Below, one piece after another: positions 19,138 through 60,426 of a stretch of 64,000 nucleotides of DNA. The stretch comes from Rhodopirellula sp. SM50 (lineage in GTDB: Bacteria > Planctomycetota > Planctomycetia > Pirellulales > Pirellulaceae): NCBI RefSeq assembly GCF_002289565.1, contig NZ_NTFY01000060.1, positions 186,001 to 250,000 of the forward strand, read 5' to 3'. The translations under genes were made by a program, and so were the position numbers. A model generated the notes under the pieces. That model saw nothing but the letters and a program-made list of their open reading frames with translations, did no database searches and was not told the origin of the DNA. Each line of letters starts with the position of its first letter. Position 1 is the first letter of the stretch.

Positions 19138-20452
19138 TTCTTAAGTTTATTGCCCCGCTGGGGCGCGTTGGTTTTCGGAAGATACCCGCCGTAGTGGACG
19201 AGGTCACGAGTCCTTTTCCCCGGGGACTCGTGACCTCGTCCACTACTGGCACCGTCTCATCTGCCGCACGACTTACTCCGTCCGGCACACTGATGATCAG
19301 CGGCACACGCGTCGTGCGTTCCCAGAGCGAGAACTTCGACCAGCGCTGTTTCTCGCCGAGGTGGTAGCCGTGATCGGAGAAGAGAACAACGATGGTGTTC
19401 GCCGCATGCGGCCCGTTGTCGAGCGCATCGAGAACTCGGCCGAGTTGTTCGTCGGTCCACCGAATGCAGGCGAGGTAAGCGTGTACCGCCTCTTCCCAGC
19501 GACCGTTCTTGCGCATCCAGTCGTGCGTCGGGATCTTTTCATTGCTTAGCGACACCTTGCGCGCAGCGTCGGGGATGTCGCTCCAGTCATCGTCGTCAAC
19601 GCGCGGTAGTTGCACGTCTTCAAAGCGGTCGTAAACCCGACGCGGCGGAAAGAACGGCACGTGCGGGCGGTAGAAACCGAAGGCGAGCAAAAACGGCTTG
19701 TCGTGCTTACTCTTAAGTTGCTCTGTGACCCAGGTGGCCGTAACGCGATCGGTGAACTTCGTTTCATCATAGTCCTGGGGTCCGAAGTCCCAAATACCGT
19801 GCCACTGTTTTGGTTTGTCGTAAACCTTTTGGTCGAGACCTTTGAGCCACTGCCCCAGACGTGGTCCGACAACTTGAAAATGCTTTTGAATCACTGTGCC
19901 GCCATGAAACACCTTGCCCGCGGTCAACGTTTTGTATCCACTGGCCGCAAAGTGCGCAGGCAAACTGACATGTGACTTCAGAAACTTCGGCTCTTTCGAG
20001 ACGGGATACGATCCTTCCCACCACTTGCCGCTCTGGTGACTGACGTAGCCTTGCTTTGTCAGCCACTGCGGCAGAGCGCCCGTCTTGTCGATGTGGGAAA
20101 TCAACAGTTCACGCGCATCCTTGCCCGCTTTCTCGGAATGAACTTTGTTGGCGAGTGTGTTGGCCGGATCGTTGCCGGTCGTTTTGTTCTGATGCGAATA
20201 GAGACCGGTGATCAACGTCATCAGCGAAGGGCGGCACAATGCGGTTGGAACATAACCTCGCCGAAACAACGCGCTTTCTCGAGCGAGCTGGTCGAGGTTC
20301 GGCGTTTCGATTTCCGGATGCCCCATGAAACCATAGTCGGTGTAGCCCTGATCGTCGGACAGAATCAGAACGACATTGGGCGGTGCGGGATCAGCCGCGA
20401 CTGCAGTCGTCACCAGTGAAAGAAATGGAAGCAGGTACAGGAAGTTCTTCAT
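19049..20452 (-). pseudogene. sulfatase truncated at its C-terminus by a palindromic repeat
   Basis: The N-terminal 400 residues are an intact sulfatase start: signal peptide (MKNFLYLLPFLSLVTTAVA), NVVLILSDDQGYTDYGFMG metal site, ALCRPSLMTLITG carrying the formylglycine cysteine near residue 70, and HGYHLGEKQRWSKFSLWERT. This resembles iduronate-2-sulfatase-type enzymes. After TRVPLIISVPDG the frame enters a perfect 23-bp inverted repeat (19191-19246), reads unrelated sequence and stops at 19049, 89 bp inside the next gene. The usual C-terminal subdomain (roughly 80-120 residues) is missing. Whether the stump folds is doubtful. Confidence 0.8.
19191..19246. repeat. perfect 23-bp inverted repeat breaking the sulfatase gene
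   Basis: Arms at 19191-19213 and 19224-19246 (start GTAGTGGACGAGGTCACGAG) are identical in inverted form, with a 10-nt loop. The sulfatase homology ends just before it on the minus strand. Confidence 0.85.
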
Positions 20453-22196: not shown

Positions 22197-22360
22197 CAGC
22201 ATGTAGCTGCGGGCGTGAGCCCGCAGATCCGGTAGAAAACACATCGAGAGCCGCGAAGCGGCGGCAGCAAACTCACACGATTTAGCCTGCTGCCGCCGCT
22301 TCGCGGCTTTTGCGTCTGTTTTGTTCAATTCCCACGGCTGGCGCCGTGGGCTACATGCTG
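22197..22360. repeat. 164-nt three-hairpin cloverleaf repeat
   Basis: A closing stem CAGCATGTAG/CTACATGCTG (22197-22206 with 22351-22360) encloses three perfect hairpins: CTGCGGGC/GCCCGCAG (22207-22226), a 21-bp pair (22249-22269 with 22288-22308, core CCGCGAAGCGGCGGCAGC) and CCCACGGC/GCCGTGGG (22331-22350). All stems are perfect. It probably represents either a mobile non-autonomous repeat or a structured RNA. Confidence 0.8.
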
Positions 22361-55443: not shown

Positions 55444-58143
55444 TCATTTCGTTCTGAACGCTTTGTGCTGCACGAGCGCGTGAACGAATTCGCTGAGTGC
55501 GAATTGTTTGCTCTTCGCAGAGCTGACCATTTCGCTGGCCAGGTCTTCATCCGTGAAGCCGAACGGGCGGCCTAACGCGTACTCGATCAGGTGTTCGGTG
55601 AAGCCGCGGGCGAAGTCTTCTTCGCGTTCTACGATGAGGTCTCGTAGTTCGTTATAGTCGCTGAAGGCTGGTCCTTTGTGGAATGCTCCGGAGGCGTCGA
55701 TCGTCCAGGTCTTCCCGTTCTTCCCTTTTCCTCCGGCATGGTCCGTGGTGCGCCACTTTCCAGCGGCATCAAAATTTTCCAGGCCGAAGCCGATCGGGTC
55801 GATCTTGCGGTGGCAGCTTGCGCATTGGGCTTCTTCCTGGTGTGCCAGCAGTCGCTCGCGGGTGGTCAGGATCTGATCGTTCAGCCGTGAGATTTGCGGG
55901 ACGTTGGGTGGTGCTGGCGGTGGTGGGTCGTTTAAGAGATGGCGCAAGACCCAGGCTCCGCGTTCGACCGGGCTGCTGACGATGCCGTCGCTGCCCATGG
56001 CGTGGATGGCGGCCATTCCGAGTAATCCGCCGCGTGGCGAGTCGGCGGGCAGTTTGATTTTGCGGAACTCGTCGCCTGTGACGCCTTCGATGCCGTAGTA
56101 GGTGGCGAGCAGGCCGTTGACGAACACGTAGTCGCTCTTGATAAGCTTGCCGATGCGACCGCCTTTCTCATCGCGAAGCAGGTGGGCGAACGACTGATAG
56201 ACCTCTTCGCGCGTGGCTGCCCGGGTGCTTTCATCGAAATCGCGGTAGAGGTTGACGTCGAACTGAAAGAAATCGAGTCGCTCCATGTCCAACCATTGGT
56301 GGACGAAGCCGGCCACGAATTCATCGCTGCGCGGATCGGCAATCAGTCGATCAACCTGCTGACGAAGGGTTTCCGGGATATGCAGTTCGTTCTTTTCGGC
56401 GAGCTCGAGCAATGGCGAATCCGGTGGTCCGCTCCAGAGGAAGTAGGAAAGCCGCACAGCCAGTTCGCGATCATCAAGCTGGCGTCGCAGAGCTTCGTCA
56501 CCAGGTTCGTAGAGATAGAGGAATCCCGGCGAAGCAAGAATGACGCTGAGCGGCGTGCGAATGGCAACATCAAAGGAATCTCCCGCTGCAAGTCGGGTCT
56601 GAAAGATTCGGACCAGGCGATCGATGAATTCGGGATCTGGCGACACGTCTCGAAAAGCGTGTTGCGCAAACTGCTCAAGTATCGTTCGGGCTCGCGGGGT
56701 TTCCTCAAGGTCTGCATCGTGATGCGCCCACGAAGCTGTGAACGCGGATGGACCTGACGCGTTCGCGATCGGACCTTCGAGTTCCACACAGTCGATCCAG
56801 ATGGCGGGCGGGTGTCCATAGCCGTTCTCTTTCTTCCACCTGTTGTGCGCATCCCAAAGTGCTTTGAGGTTTCCGTTGTTGGGCTGTTTCTCCTGCACCG
56901 CGAACTCGCGAATCGTATTGGCGGTGACCTCAAGCGGGATTTCGATCGTTTCGGGGTTCTCGATCGTTCCGGTGACTTGATGAGTACTGATCGCGCGGCC
57001 TTCGAGTCCCCAGTTTCTGCTCTCGATCTGGCGTTGAGGATGTCCAACCTGGATGAAACGTCGCTCGGCCGGAGTGCCTTCGACCGCTCCGACACGCACG
57101 CGGATGACATAGCTGCCGGGCGACAGATTCTTTTTCTTCGGGGGAACAATGATGCGACCGGTGCCGTGAGCGAGCTTCAAGTAAGTGCCACGGTCGCGAT
57201 GCGGGAGGGCGGCGTAGTGTTTGTGATAGGCGAGGTTGCGCCGGTCCCCCTCAGGATGGCCGCTAGCAGCTTTTGGCGAGTCGCGAAAACCAAAATCTTT
57301 CGGATCGGGGGTTCCCTCAAGTCGATCGGCATAAGCGTAGAAGCGGATGGGGTGATCGATCAGGCGATCCGTCTTGCGAATCTCGGCAATCCTCGCCTGA
57401 TTCTGCGGAGTCTTCGCGGCTTCATCCACTCCCTTTTGCCAGCGGGTGAAGCGGGCATATTCGTCTTCAATGTTCGCGATCTCCTTTTCGTTCGCCGGAT
57501 TGACCGTCGTTTCAGGCTCGACACGGAAGGTATTCGTTTCCGGTCCCGCTGTCTTCTGCCGCTCGAAGGCTTCATCGATCGCGCTGCGTCCAAGCTTCAG
57601 ATACTGCTCGAACTGATCGCTGGAGATAAACTGCGACGCTCCCACCGTATCAAAGGTCCCCGAGCCGCCGTCGGTGGGCAGTGAGCCGACATCGACCTTC
57701 ACGCCGGTCAAGTGTTCGATGGTGTTGCGGTACTCGCGCCGGTTAAGCCGTCGCATCGTGATCCTGCCGCCTGAATCTGACAAAGCCCGACGCGCGGTCA
57801 CCATGGTTCGAGCGAGGTCGTCAAGGAAATCCGCCTTTTCAGCATTGCCAGGTTGTTCGGAATCCTCCGGCGGCATTTCGCCCGCGTTCAGCGCGCCCAA
57901 GACCTTTTGCCAGAGTTCCGCCTGCTTCAGTGTGGTGATGCGGAATGGCAGCACTTCGAGGTCAACTTTGCCTTCACGTGTCTCGGAATCGTGACAATCG
58001 AGGCAATGCGACTTGAAGAAGGCCCGGTGTTTCTCCGGAAGGCTCGCTTCAGGCGGAGCTGCTAGCATTGCGGACGTGGTGAGAATTAGGCAGAGAAATG
58101 GGGGCAGAGGAATGATTTTTGGATTCAATAATGAGATACTCAT
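55444..58143 (-). CDS. DUF1592/DUF1588 planctomycete cytochrome-type secreted protein
   Basis: 899 residues from ATG 58143. PSCyt1-like haem motif near residue 50 (SHCLDCHDSETREG), DUF1587 (MRRLNRREYRNTIEHLTGVK), a carbohydrate-binding-like middle, DUF1595/DUF1592 (LDDRELAVRLSYFLWSGPPD; FVAGFVHQWLDMERLDFFQF), DUF1588 (ASCHRKIDPIGFGLENFDAA) and DUF1585 at the end. These multi-domain proteins accompany DUF1552 proteins in planctomycetes; the biochemical role is unknown. The start codon and the first 19 or so residues, including half the signal peptide (PKIIPLPPFLCLI), are encoded inside the left hairpin of the GxxExxY element. Confidence 0.9.
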   Translation of the reverse strand: MSISLLNPKIIPLPPFLCLILTTSAMLAAPPEASLPEKHRAFFKSHCLDCHDSETREGKVDLEVLPFRITTLKQAELWQKVLGALNAGEMPPEDSEQPGNAEKADFLDDLARTMVTARRALSDSGGRITMRRLNRREYRNTIEHLTGVKVDVGSLPTDGGSGTFDTVGASQFISSDQFEQYLKLGRSAIDEAFERQKTAGPETNTFRVEPETTVNPANEKEIANIEDEYARFTRWQKGVDEAAKTPQNQARIAEIRKTDRLIDHPIRFYAYADRLEGTPDPKDFGFRDSPKAASGHPEGDRRNLAYHKHYAALPHRDRGTYLKLAHGTGRIIVPPKKKNLSPGSYVIRVRVGAVEGTPAERRFIQVGHPQRQIESRNWGLEGRAISTHQVTGTIENPETIEIPLEVTANTIREFAVQEKQPNNGNLKALWDAHNRWKKENGYGHPPAIWIDCVELEGPIANASGPSAFTASWAHHDADLEETPRARTILEQFAQHAFRDVSPDPEFIDRLVRIFQTRLAAGDSFDVAIRTPLSVILASPGFLYLYEPGDEALRRQLDDRELAVRLSYFLWSGPPDSPLLELAEKNELHIPETLRQQVDRLIADPRSDEFVAGFVHQWLDMERLDFFQFDVNLYRDFDESTRAATREEVYQSFAHLLRDEKGGRIGKLIKSDYVFVNGLLATYYGIEGVTGDEFRKIKLPADSPRGGLLGMAAIHAMGSDGIVSSPVERGAWVLRHLLNDPPPPAPPNVPQISRLNDQILTTRERLLAHQEEAQCASCHRKIDPIGFGLENFDAAGKWRTTDHAGGKGKNGKTWTIDASGAFHKGPAFSDYNELRDLIVEREEDFARGFTEHLIEYALGRPFGFTDEDLASEMVSSAKSKQFALSEFVHALVQHKAFRTK

Positions 58144-59076
58144 TCCTATGCCCCCATTCCTCTGCCTAGCAGTCATCCCATGAGCATTACATCCGAGATC
58201 CCGATTCTTCCTACTAGTCGCGACGTGTTTAATGAGGTGGATGCTGCAGTGATGCAATGCGCGTATGCATCCCAAAATCATTTTGGACGCTTGTGCGAGG
58301 AAGCAGTATATGAAAATGACGTCAAAGCTCGGCTGCATGCGACCGGTTTCGATGACGTGCATACTCAAGTGGAATTGCTGGTGTCGCATGGGGGATTTCA
58401 GAAAGAATACCGGTTGGATTTAGTCGTAAACCAAGTTTTATATGAGTTAAAGGCAGCGGATGCGTTGATTCCCGAGCACGACGCTCAGGCACTGAATTAT
58501 GCTGCCTTGTTAGGTCTGAATCGGGTGAAGCTGATCAACTTCGGAGGGCCCAAGGTTCAAGGAAGACTGCATGGTGCCCCGTTCGCTGACATGGATCGTC
58601 GAAACATCAAGATCGACAACAGCAAATGGCAACCGTTGTCGAAAGCGTGTACCAAACTGGCAGAATGGTTCGAGGAATTCATTCGAAACATTGGCGGCTA
58701 CCTGAATACTCGGATCTACGAAGAAGCACTCATGTGGTTTTGCGGTGGAAAAGACGCTTGCGTTCAACGATTGCCTGTACGCCGTAACAATCGTGAAATG
58801 GGAAAACACGCCTGTCGGCTCTACTGCGACGACTGCGCCTTCGTTATCACAGGCCTCAAACCTGGAGAAAGTCGGAGAAACTACCAACGGCAACTCCGAT
58901 CGCTGGTCAACGCCTTGCCTATTCAAGCTTTTCAATGGATCAACATTCATCATCTGGACGTTTCGTTTGTCACGGTTCGCGGTCAGGGAAATAGGCAGAG
59001 GAATGGGGGCAAAGGAATTAACGTCTCTGTTCTTTCCTAACTCTTAAAACATTCCTCTGCCCCCATTCCTTTGCCT
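58088..59076. mobile_element. 989-bp hairpin-bounded element carrying a GxxExxY gene
   Basis: Each end is a hairpin made of the same AGGCAGAGGAATGGGGGCA-type sequence. Left: 58088-58115 with 58140-58167, 26 of 28 bases paired, 24-nt spacer. Right: 58993-59018 with 59051-59076, 24 of 26 paired, 32-nt spacer. Within each arm CAGAGGAATG is repeated in tandem. The only gene inside, on the plus strand, is a PD-(D/E)XK-type GxxExxY gene, while the flanking DUF1592 and DUF1552 genes run on the minus strand and look like separated operon partners. No transposase is present. A mobile or inserted nature is inferred. Confidence 0.65.
58180..59040 (+). CDS. GxxExxY protein (PD-(D/E)XK nuclease fold), long form
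   Basis: 286 residues. The first half matches the GxxExxY family, with a variant name motif (GRLCEEAVYENDVKARL near 35-51) and the nuclease-fold core YRLDLVVNQVLYELKAADAL (Asp near 82; ExK as ELK near 91-93), then AQALNYAALLGLNRVKLINF. Usual family members are about 125 residues; this one has some 140 more (DNSKWQPLSKACTKLAEWFE, GGYLNTRIYEEALMWFCGGK, CRLYCDDCAFVITGLKPGES). Its last 20 residues (GNRQRNGGKGINV) are read from the element's right hairpin. Cytoplasmic. Nuclease activity is suggested by the fold but not shown for the family. Confidence 0.88.
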   Translation: MSITSEIPILPTSRDVFNEVDAAVMQCAYASQNHFGRLCEEAVYENDVKARLHATGFDDVHTQVELLVSHGGFQKEYRLDLVVNQVLYELKAADALIPEHDAQALNYAALLGLNRVKLINFGGPKVQGRLHGAPFADMDRRNIKIDNSKWQPLSKACTKLAEWFEEFIRNIGGYLNTRIYEEALMWFCGGKDACVQRLPVRRNNREMGKHACRLYCDDCAFVITGLKPGESRRNYQRQLRSLVNALPIQAFQWINIHHLDVSFVTVRGQGNRQRNGGKGINVSVLS

Positions 59077-59083
59077 GATCAAA

Positions 59084-60370
59084 TCACCCCTGCAGTTCCT
59101 TCACCACACCCGTGCTGTCACCGTGTCTTTCCGCGTTGATACCCATTCCCTGCAGCATCGTCAGCCACACATTGCACAGCGGTGTGTCTTTCGGCAGGAC
59201 GAGATGCTGGCCGAGCTTCAGGTTGGCTCCGCCGCCGGTGAGAACCGTTGGGCAATTGGTCAGGTAGTGGATGGAGCTGATGTTCGACCCCCAAGCCACA
59301 GCGGTGTGGTCGAAGAGGCTCGATCCGTCGGCTTCCTTTGTCGCCTTGAGTTTGTCGATCAGCCGGGCCAGCAGTTCGCTGTGGACCTTGTCGCGCACCT
59401 TGGAGGCCTGCATGCGTTCGCCGGGTGAGTAATGGCTCACATTGTGGGCGCTCGGTTTGAGATCGAGACTCTGCAGAAGGCTCTGACCGGGCATGCGGTA
59501 GGTCAGCGAACGAGTGCTGTCCGTCTTTAACGCGGCAACGATCAGATCCTGCATGATTTCGATCTCGGCCTTCCCCTTCAGACCGGGTTCCGGCTGGTCG
59601 AGAGGCGGATTGGCCTTGGGGACGTCGAGCCAGGCTTCGTCTTTTTTGAGTCGCGTTTCGATGTCGCGGATGCCCTGGAAGTATTCGTCGAGCTTGTCGG
59701 TGTCGGTTTTGGAGAGGCCGCGCTGCACGTGCCTGGCTTGGGCGAGGACTGCGTCCAGGACGCTGCGGTTCTCGGCGATGGCGGCCTGGCGTTGCTCCAG
59801 CGGCAAGTCGTCGGCCGAGAAGAGCTTGTGGAAAATCTGCACCGGATCGTCCTGGCCGGCGACCGGCTTGCCACGCTGATCCCACGACAGCGAGAGACCG
59901 GGACCGTGGCCTTCCAGACTGGAACCGTTGAGCTGAATCGAAGAGAAGCGGGTGTCCTGCCCTAAATGCTGCGCGACGACCTGGTCGGCCGAGATGCTGT
60001 TGGCCATGTTCTGGCCGGGCACGCTGTAGCGATTGGCCCCGGTCAGCCAGAACGTGCTACCCCAGTGAGCTTCGTTGGTGTATTGATTTGAGCAGCCCTG
60101 CACCACCGTGATATCCGACTGGTGACGAGCAAGCGGAGCGAGGCCCTCAGAAAGCTCGTAGTCCGCACCCGTCCGGGCCACATCCGGAAACCAGGTTTCC
60201 TTGGTCACCCCGAAGCCGATGCCGAGGAAGACGCAGCGTTTGGAAGGGGCGGCGGGTGCTGTTTCCGCAGCCGAAGCAAAGCGACGAAAGCCGATCGATT
60301 CCAGCGCAGGCAGTGCGATCACTGCTCCTGATCCGCGAAGCATCTGGCGACGATCGAGTTGAGCTTTCAT
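59084..60370 (-). CDS. DUF1552 family secreted protein with Tat-type signal
   Basis: 428 residues from ATG 60370 (MKAQLDRRQMLRGSGAVIAL, a twin-arginine-like leader); an in-frame ATG at 60397 is less likely. DUF1552 body: CVFLGIGFGVTKETWFPDVA, HWGSTFWLTGANRYSVPGQN, ISADQVVAQHLGQDTRFSSI, YFQGIRDIETRLKKDEAWLD, HYLTNCPTVLTGGGANLKLG. Function unknown. These genes normally sit next to DUF1592-type genes; here the 989-bp GxxExxY element lies between the two. Confidence 0.93.
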   Translation of the reverse strand: MKAQLDRRQMLRGSGAVIALPALESIGFRRFASAAETAPAAPSKRCVFLGIGFGVTKETWFPDVARTGADYELSEGLAPLARHQSDITVVQGCSNQYTNEAHWGSTFWLTGANRYSVPGQNMANSISADQVVAQHLGQDTRFSSIQLNGSSLEGHGPGLSLSWDQRGKPVAGQDDPVQIFHKLFSADDLPLEQRQAAIAENRSVLDAVLAQARHVQRGLSKTDTDKLDEYFQGIRDIETRLKKDEAWLDVPKANPPLDQPEPGLKGKAEIEIMQDLIVAALKTDSTRSLTYRMPGQSLLQSLDLKPSAHNVSHYSPGERMQASKVRDKVHSELLARLIDKLKATKEADGSSLFDHTAVAWGSNISSIHYLTNCPTVLTGGGANLKLGQHLVLPKDTPLCNVWLTMLQGMGINAERHGDSTGVVKELQG

Positions 60371-60426
60371 TGCATGATCTCTGCAGGTCAGTGGCAACCC
60401 CTTCTCTGGCAGTATCGGACGTCAGC

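Follow-up and report, generated by a model that had tools for sequence, protein, structure and literature searches.

A GxxExxY gene enclosed by two hairpins

The subject of this study is a short element in a 64,000-nucleotide stretch of DNA from Rhodopirellula sp. SM50 (contig NZ_NTFY01000060.1, positions 186,001 to 250,000; hereafter the window), in which a GxxExxY gene lies between two hairpins. The gene (58180-59040, + strand) is the longest open reading frame (ORF) between them and encodes a two-domain PDDEXK_3 protein of 286 aa, recognised by the profiles PF13366 (E = 5.1e-18) and TIGR04256 (3.5e-16). The 5′ hairpin (58087-58168, no strand assigned) pairs arms of 29 nt at 58087-58115 and 58140-58168, which are 93% complementary and separated by a loop of 24 nt. 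The 3′ hairpin (58993-59076, likewise without strand) pairs arms of 26 nt at 58993-59018 and 59051-59076, with 92% complementarity and a loop of 32 nt; its left arm overlaps the 3′ end of the GxxExxY ORF. Each arm consists of two GGCARAGGAATG-like units spaced by 14 bp and common to both hairpins, and the four 27-nt arms deviate from their majority sequence at only 1-2 positions each. The hairpins score 23 and 20, as compared to 13 for the best of 30 shuffles of the region. The arm alignment and the shuffles thus bear out an earlier note on this DNA, which had described both ends as paired-arm hairpins built from one unit, with tandemly duplicated arms. A chance origin of these hairpins was rejected, since they outscore 30/30 shuffles and their units are concentrated at GxxExxY genes (see below). 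No long-type tandem units occur elsewhere in the window, nor in 5 shuffles. Two further hairpins of the window, at 19191-19246 and 22249-22308 (scores 23 and 21), are devoid of tandem units.

The element holds three ORFs of at least 100 aa, namely the PF13366 gene and two ORFs overlapping it (147 and 100 aa), for which we found neither a Pfam match above cut-off nor membership of a Y1 (HUH) transposase family. The absence of a transposase gene among these ORFs sets the element apart from classical insertion sequences and miniature inverted-repeat transposable elements. Profiles and strands also agree with the earlier claim that the only cargo is a GxxExxY gene antisense to the flanking DUF1552 and DUF1592 genes, with no transposase. 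When the 9.8-Mb genome was searched with the 19-nt unit AGGCAGAGGAATGGGGGCA allowing at most 1 mismatch, 4 copies were found, all at the window locus; with 3 mismatches six additional matches appeared, against 1 for the reversed control.

Tandem units accompany GxxExxY genes

Short GxxExxY genes carry units of their own, consisting of tandem CRCNRAN motifs about 10 nt apart. At 60 such loci from the host's taxonomic family, hand-picked for contig room from a score-ordered list, the density of this unit falls from 8.12/kb in the 300 bp next to the gene to 0.054/kb at a distance of 4-7.8 kb, a difference of about 150-fold. Units are found within 700 bp at 48 of the loci and on both sides of the gene at 29, and in 25 of these 29 the top core is identical on the two sides (4.6 expected; maximum of 14 in 10000 permutations). 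Hairpin density falls with distance in the same 60 loci, from 1.42 to 0.061 per kb, one artefact due to a run of N being included in the count.

The window protein itself was used to retrieve 70 long loci, which include its own and two others from its genome. Here hairpins lie within 600 bp at 20/30 and 21/40 loci (an N-run being left out), and long-type units within 300 bp at 46/70. On the other hand, the same unit searches detected neither the long- nor the short-type unit at any of 30 Y1 loci or 30 PF05635 loci. A broader set was formed by the best 80 of at least 577 relatives; it spans many phyla and contains two archaeal loci (L328 and L392), and it leans towards one subfamily because the best 80 are those closest to the query. 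Units are present at 66 of these 80 loci, and their density, 7.12/kb in the first 300 bp, is 0.07/kb between 600 and 1000 bp and 0.27-0.29/kb between 1 and 4 kb. Where they occur on both sides, the core is shared in 38/44 cases (13.6 expected; maximum of 24 in 5000 permutations). The possibility that the repeat is no commoner beside GxxExxY genes than elsewhere, which the earlier note had set against its own proposal, is contradicted by these data, the units being far denser beside the gene. The window element is a member of a large class and not a lone oddity.

When the loci were scanned without a preset motif, each protein class had a period of its own: 8-10 at short and 13-17 at long GxxExxY genes and 7 at PF05635 genes (20/30 loci), with almost no periodicity at Y1 genes. 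The PF05635 genes in question (L217-L246), which encode four-helix proteins of the host's family, adjoin tandem repeats of period 7 at these 20 loci and constitute a possible parallel system. As a separate observation, another two-domain PDDEXK_3 gene of the window genome (L012) has a hairpin with the unit CGCGAACCCACGGAT, which falls outside the usual pattern.

The unit follows the protein

Similarity between proteins was compared with similarity between their units using cross-genus pairs only. In the short class the two are correlated with a rho of 0.265, the maximum of 2000 permutations being 0.099, and the nearest cross-genus protein has an identical core in 24/48 cases, as compared to 6.8 expected. 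In the long class rho is 0.122 (p = 0.002). The window protein is 39-48% identical to its six nearest relatives, four of which, from other genera (L088, L091, L092 and L093), are accompanied by hairpins of GGCA-type units close to those of the window.

Three loci shared among genomes of the genus were then compared. At locus A, GGTCAAAAAAT arrays are found in the window's own genome (G000), G152 and G151, and GGTAGGAAGAT arrays in G150, G154 and G148. The encoded proteins are 84-90% identical inside these unit groups and 56-58% across them, with flanks that are 79-94% identical between groups. For instance, G000 and G154 share flanks of 90-94% identity and proteins of 57%, while G000 and G151 share flanks of 80% and proteins of 90%. 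The 5′ hairpin is common to both unit groups, the units differing in the 3′ array. At locus B, five proteins that are 83-97% identical among themselves share 58-61% identity with that of G150; G150 has GGCAGAATGATG instead of GGCARRACGATG, and its flanks are 82-95% identical to those of the others where a separate flank match exists (4/5 pairs). At both loci the divergence between groups spans nearly the whole protein. As judged from these alignments, a change of protein at loci A and B goes with a change of unit, with most flanks still 79-95% identical. Finally, at locus C the element of G148 is inverted relative to that of G151 (L213 and L214), the flanks being collinear.

Layout of the cassettes and their insertion sites

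The arrangement of units was examined at 72 loci of the best-80 set, 8/80 being dropped for their short flanks. In 35 of the 72 the two arrays face each other across the gene, the left one pointing right and the right one left, and the gene thus occupies the loop of a single long inverted repeat. The remaining layouts show the two orientations together on one or both sides (22/72), units on one side only (7), other orientations (4) or no units (4). In the short class the outer end preceding the first unit is mostly TT[CA]AC: base -2 is A in 47/54 left and 43/52 right ends, and base -1 is C in 42/54 and 42/52, respectively. The arms of the window element start with AGGCA.

Ten neighbours of six cassettes were scanned with profiles, which covered both neighbours for four of them. 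Three of these four cassettes lie between operon genes, namely carA/carB (L341), trpE/trpG-pabA (L353) and FliH-like/FliI (L356), although the FliH-like neighbour scores below its profile cut-off. The carA/carB, trpE/trpG and fliH/fliI pairs are normally adjacent.

Gene-free arrays dispersed in the genus

The genus comparison comprised 14 genomes, that of the window included, and an array of several units counts as several matches. The unit pattern of locus B gives 62-255 matches each in G000, G148, G150, G151, G152 and G154 and none in the other eight genomes; that of locus A gives 26-131 matches in the same six and none in the other eight. In the window genome, genome-wide dispersal holds for two unit families other than the window's own. 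Two sites of G000 were compared with other species that have about 73-96% similar flanks; there the site is occupied by the same array, by a different unit family or by a short remnant.

Y1 genes are present in 14/14 genomes, including the eight that lack the two array families, among which G138 has 27 Y1 matches. RAYTs (REP-associated tyrosine transposases; REP, repetitive extragenic palindrome) were rejected as the partner of these arrays, since the units are found at 0/30 Y1 loci and Y1 genes occur also in genomes without the two array families. Hairpins such as AACCCCAACGGGGTT and AGGCCCGGAGGGCC lie near 18/30 Y1/RAYT loci of the genus (L297-L326) and by eye resemble ordinary REPs. Two further observations concern repeats in these genomes. 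Contigs C39, C60, C79, C113 and C116 of G000 begin or end inside unit arrays, which seem therefore to break the assembly, and another dispersed repeat, TTAGCGGAACGGCGCGAGCCGTCCGG (L248:7103-7470), is matched many times in congeneric species.

The GxxExxY protein

The window protein scores 66 bits against PF13366 (cut-off 22) and 59.6 bits against TIGR04256 (cut-off 35). The PD-(D/E)XK residues and the ExxY motif are regarded as marks of the family. Across a hand-picked set of 19 long proteins, that of the window among them, E41, D80, E89 and K91 are invariant (19/19) and Y44 is conserved in at least 90%. The four invariant residues all belong to the N domain, and the C domain has no evident ExK motif. 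A model of a short GxxExxY protein reaches a predicted local distance difference test (pLDDT) value of 96.7; the model of the window protein is confident in its N domain alone. Over most of the C domain pLDDT is below 50, and at this low confidence the C domain repeats the helix-helix-strands-helix order. A Foldseek search of the PDB gave no match at E ≤ 1e-3; the nearest solved folds, all weak, are SSO0001 (E = 3.5e-3), which we take to be a Cas4 protein, then lambda-type exonucleases and, lower down, tRNA splicing endonucleases. No PDB sequence matches at E ≤ 1, and the window protein found no match in viral contigs or in plasmids.

The ratio of nonsynonymous to synonymous substitution (dN/dS) was 0.09-0.13 in 6/11 scorable pairs and 0.26-0.52 in the other five, a twelfth pair being saturated; the ORFs were taken from stop to stop, so that some of them contain upstream repeat sequence. 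Matches to PF13366 number 28 in G136, 21 in G037 and 19 in G125, and many of them are short C-terminal fragments, perhaps decaying copies.

Neighbouring genes and the same site in other species

The element is flanked by two host genes on the minus strand. The DUF1592 gene (PF07631) extends from 55444 to 58143; the mechanically called ORF continues to 58389, and the start at 58143 is our own reading. The 5′ hairpin falls within this reading frame, and since the likeliest start codon (58143) is inside the hairpin, the repeat would encode part of the DUF1592 signal peptide. A signal peptide apparently encoded by a repeat is seen for DUF1592 in two species, with different repeats (58087-58143 in the window; L078:3243-3460). 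The DUF1552 gene (PF07586) lies at 59084-60397, and its stop codon is separated from the 3′ hairpin by 7 bp.

A DUF1552 match at E ≤ 1e-100 is present in 4/14 genomes of the genus, the best outside the window genome being that of G036 (87%). This is also the only one of the three other genomes in which the DUF1592 side falls inside the fetched 1.5-kb flank; the best DUF1552 loci of G150 and G152 (L079 and L080) show no DUF1592 side within that distance. In G036 the gap between the two genes contains a different GxxExxY gene, oriented opposite to DUF1552 and bounded by repeats of another unit. This gene is apparently frameshifted, its two pieces matching PF13366 at 1.1e-5 and 1.9e-15. An empty DUF1552-DUF1592 gap was not found among the genomes of the genus with a DUF1552 match. 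As far as the site can be compared, the situation envisaged in the earlier note, in which all relatives keep the gene here beside unrelated flanks, does not apply, given the different gene and repeats of G036.

Interpretation and alternative explanations

We consider it fairly probable that this locus represents a copy of a mobile repeat system, in which a PD-(D/E)XK protein of the GxxExxY family is carried between inverted arrays of its own unit. The comparisons behind this reading are the co-occurrence of gene and units, the agreement of the two sides, the way the unit tracks the protein, the sites inside operons and the gene-free arrays in part of the genus. On these sequence comparisons the pairing of the gene with cognate repeats is well supported, and the most economical reading would be that the nuclease drives the spread of the arrays. 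The GxxExxY protein would bind its unit, one domain corresponding to a unit of about 10 nt and two domains to one of 14-17 nt. The catalytic N domain would then cut the extruded hairpin or the array, and repair or template switching would copy the array, or the cassette bearing the gene, into another cognate array or an intergenic site. Such an element would resemble REP/RAYT in its working but use an unrelated enzyme, and entry of the gene into an array already present would amount to a homing-like step. The earlier note had proposed a new class of mobile DNA; gene and hairpins do belong together and recur at unrelated places, some inside operons, while mobility itself is something we infer.

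Several observations weigh against this reading. A unit was not recognised at 12/60 short, 14/80 broad and 24/70 long loci, and the loci were not a random sample, being selected for score and contig room. In the long class the observed rho is exceeded by some permutations (maximum 0.128), and of the six nearest relatives of the window protein, L089 (from the same genus, with two stops) and L090 showed no hairpin. The six array-bearing genomes may form one clade, in which case the 6-versus-8 split may be a single event. Moreover, among these six genomes copy number does not track the local allele: G150, with no cognate allele at either locus, has 62 and 90 matches, and G152, which has the locus A allele, has 26. 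The window's own unit has no dispersed copies in its genome, no target-site duplication is evident by eye at the cassette termini, and dN/dS reaches 0.26-0.52 in five of the 11 scorable pairs. Finally, movement, binding and cutting would all be deductions from comparison.

The best-surviving alternative, which we nevertheless regard as unlikely, is that the arrays are binding sites through which GxxExxY or a host factor such as IHF/HU regulates genes, or the GxxExxY gene itself, with no mobility of their own. Matching units directly beside the gene would suit autoregulation, and very similar paired three-unit sites were interpreted as sites of global regulators in Geobacter metallireducens, in the available part of the 2009 genome paper (PMC2700814). 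However, regulation accounts poorly for nuclease residues that are invariant in 19 aligned proteins, for cassettes between operon genes of unrelated function, and for different unit families at the same site in different species.

Less plausible still is an action of the repeats as RNA, with transcript hairpins processed as in the 23S rRNA intervening sequences and the protein serving as an RNA-processing or RNA-binding factor. The gene-in-loop layout resembles that of these sequences, whose own protein family, PF05635, also adjoins tandem repeats of period 7. Yet the PD-(D/E)XK fold is mostly found in DNA nucleases, and SSO0001 and lambda exonuclease are the nearest folds, if weak ones, although tRNA splicing endonucleases do rank lower in the list; in addition, some arrays are long and one-way rather than balanced hairpins.

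It is very improbable that other machinery, such as Y1/RAYT transposases or insertion sequences, moves the arrays with GxxExxY as a passenger: the presence of Y1 genes in all 14 genomes would permit it, but these include the eight in which both array families are missing (G138 among them), none of 30 Y1 loci has the short- or long-type units, hairpins near 18 of them resemble ordinary REPs by eye, and the units track GxxExxY proteins across genera. Least credible of all is an expansion of the repeats by replication slippage, with GxxExxY as a host-protective nuclease trimming its cognate repeat, which would fit array copy numbers that vary greatly between species and arms that are often unequal, but leaves unexplained both the inverted ends with a common outer terminus and the cassettes inside operons.

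Returning to the mobile repeat system, the recurrence of GxxExxY genes with their own repeats in many bacteria and some archaea suggests that a kind of small mobile DNA has been overlooked. In a broader and more tentative form, for which we hold rather less than even confidence, a lone PD-(D/E)XK nuclease would recognise, cut and spread its tandem-unit hairpins across bacteria and archaea, the number of domains would set the unit length, and specificity would shift by joint exchange of protein and unit, while the four-helix proteins of the 23S intervening sequences would run a parallel 7-nt system. A common uncharacterised gene family thereby gains a testable substrate and role, and puzzling dispersed bacterial repeats gain a likely partner. 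If the reading is correct, the natural matched pairs of protein and unit would allow direct tests of how recognition evolves.

Comparison with known systems

In the intervening sequences of 23S rRNA a small gene lies in the loop of an inverted repeat. The layout described here is alike, and PF05635 genes, which encode the four-helix S23 proteins of those sequences, are also accompanied by period-7 repeats; protein family and repeat are different, and the present elements lie between protein genes. Indeed, the window element is located between DUF1552 and DUF1592 and not in a 23S rRNA gene, and it encodes a PF13366 and not a PF05635 protein. Freestanding homing endonucleases are likewise encoded by small nuclease genes, flanked, as may be the case here, by the enzyme's own recognition sequence. 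The inverted-terminal layout (35/72 loci) is compatible with homing into a gene-free allele, but the repeats of the present elements are tandem and dispersed and the protein belongs to another family.

Among the papers listed, none ties these repeats to GxxExxY, as judged by titles and abstracts; subscription papers and preprints were mostly outside the search, so that the claim of novelty is limited to the literature searched. Repeats of this kind were already seen in 2009 in Geobacter metallireducens and then read as regulator sites (PMC2700814, in the parts available). That paper describes paired sites on opposite strands, each made of TCTCCGTS[Y] in three tandem copies, as well as a heptanucleotide class; it assigns the site pairs to IHF/HU or to unidentified global regulators and reports insertion sequences near class 1 sites. 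TCTCCGTS[Y] is the reverse complement of the CACGGAG unit found here, and the heptanucleotide class equals in length the repeats beside PF05635 genes. No partner gene is named in those parts of the paper, as opposed to GxxExxY in our case.

The closest parallel is offered by the REP/BIME-RAYT system (BIME, bacterial interspersed mosaic element), with palindromes beside a small nuclease-type gene and related gene-free repeats that are dispersed and mostly intergenic (in part after the accessible sections of PMC3733652). In the same sections REP palindromes are flanked by a GTAG or CGTC tag, as compared to TT[CA]AC in our short class and AGGCA in the window arms. The two systems differ also in that the arms are here tandem unit arrays and that the REP partner is a Y1 (HUH) transposase, the protein of the window element being a PF13366 PD-(D/E)XK protein. 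Y1 genes with REP-like hairpins coexist with GxxExxY systems in this genus, and the latter, if our reading is correct, would, alongside REP/RAYT, be a second system to combine palindromes with a nuclease, the enzyme being an unrelated one.

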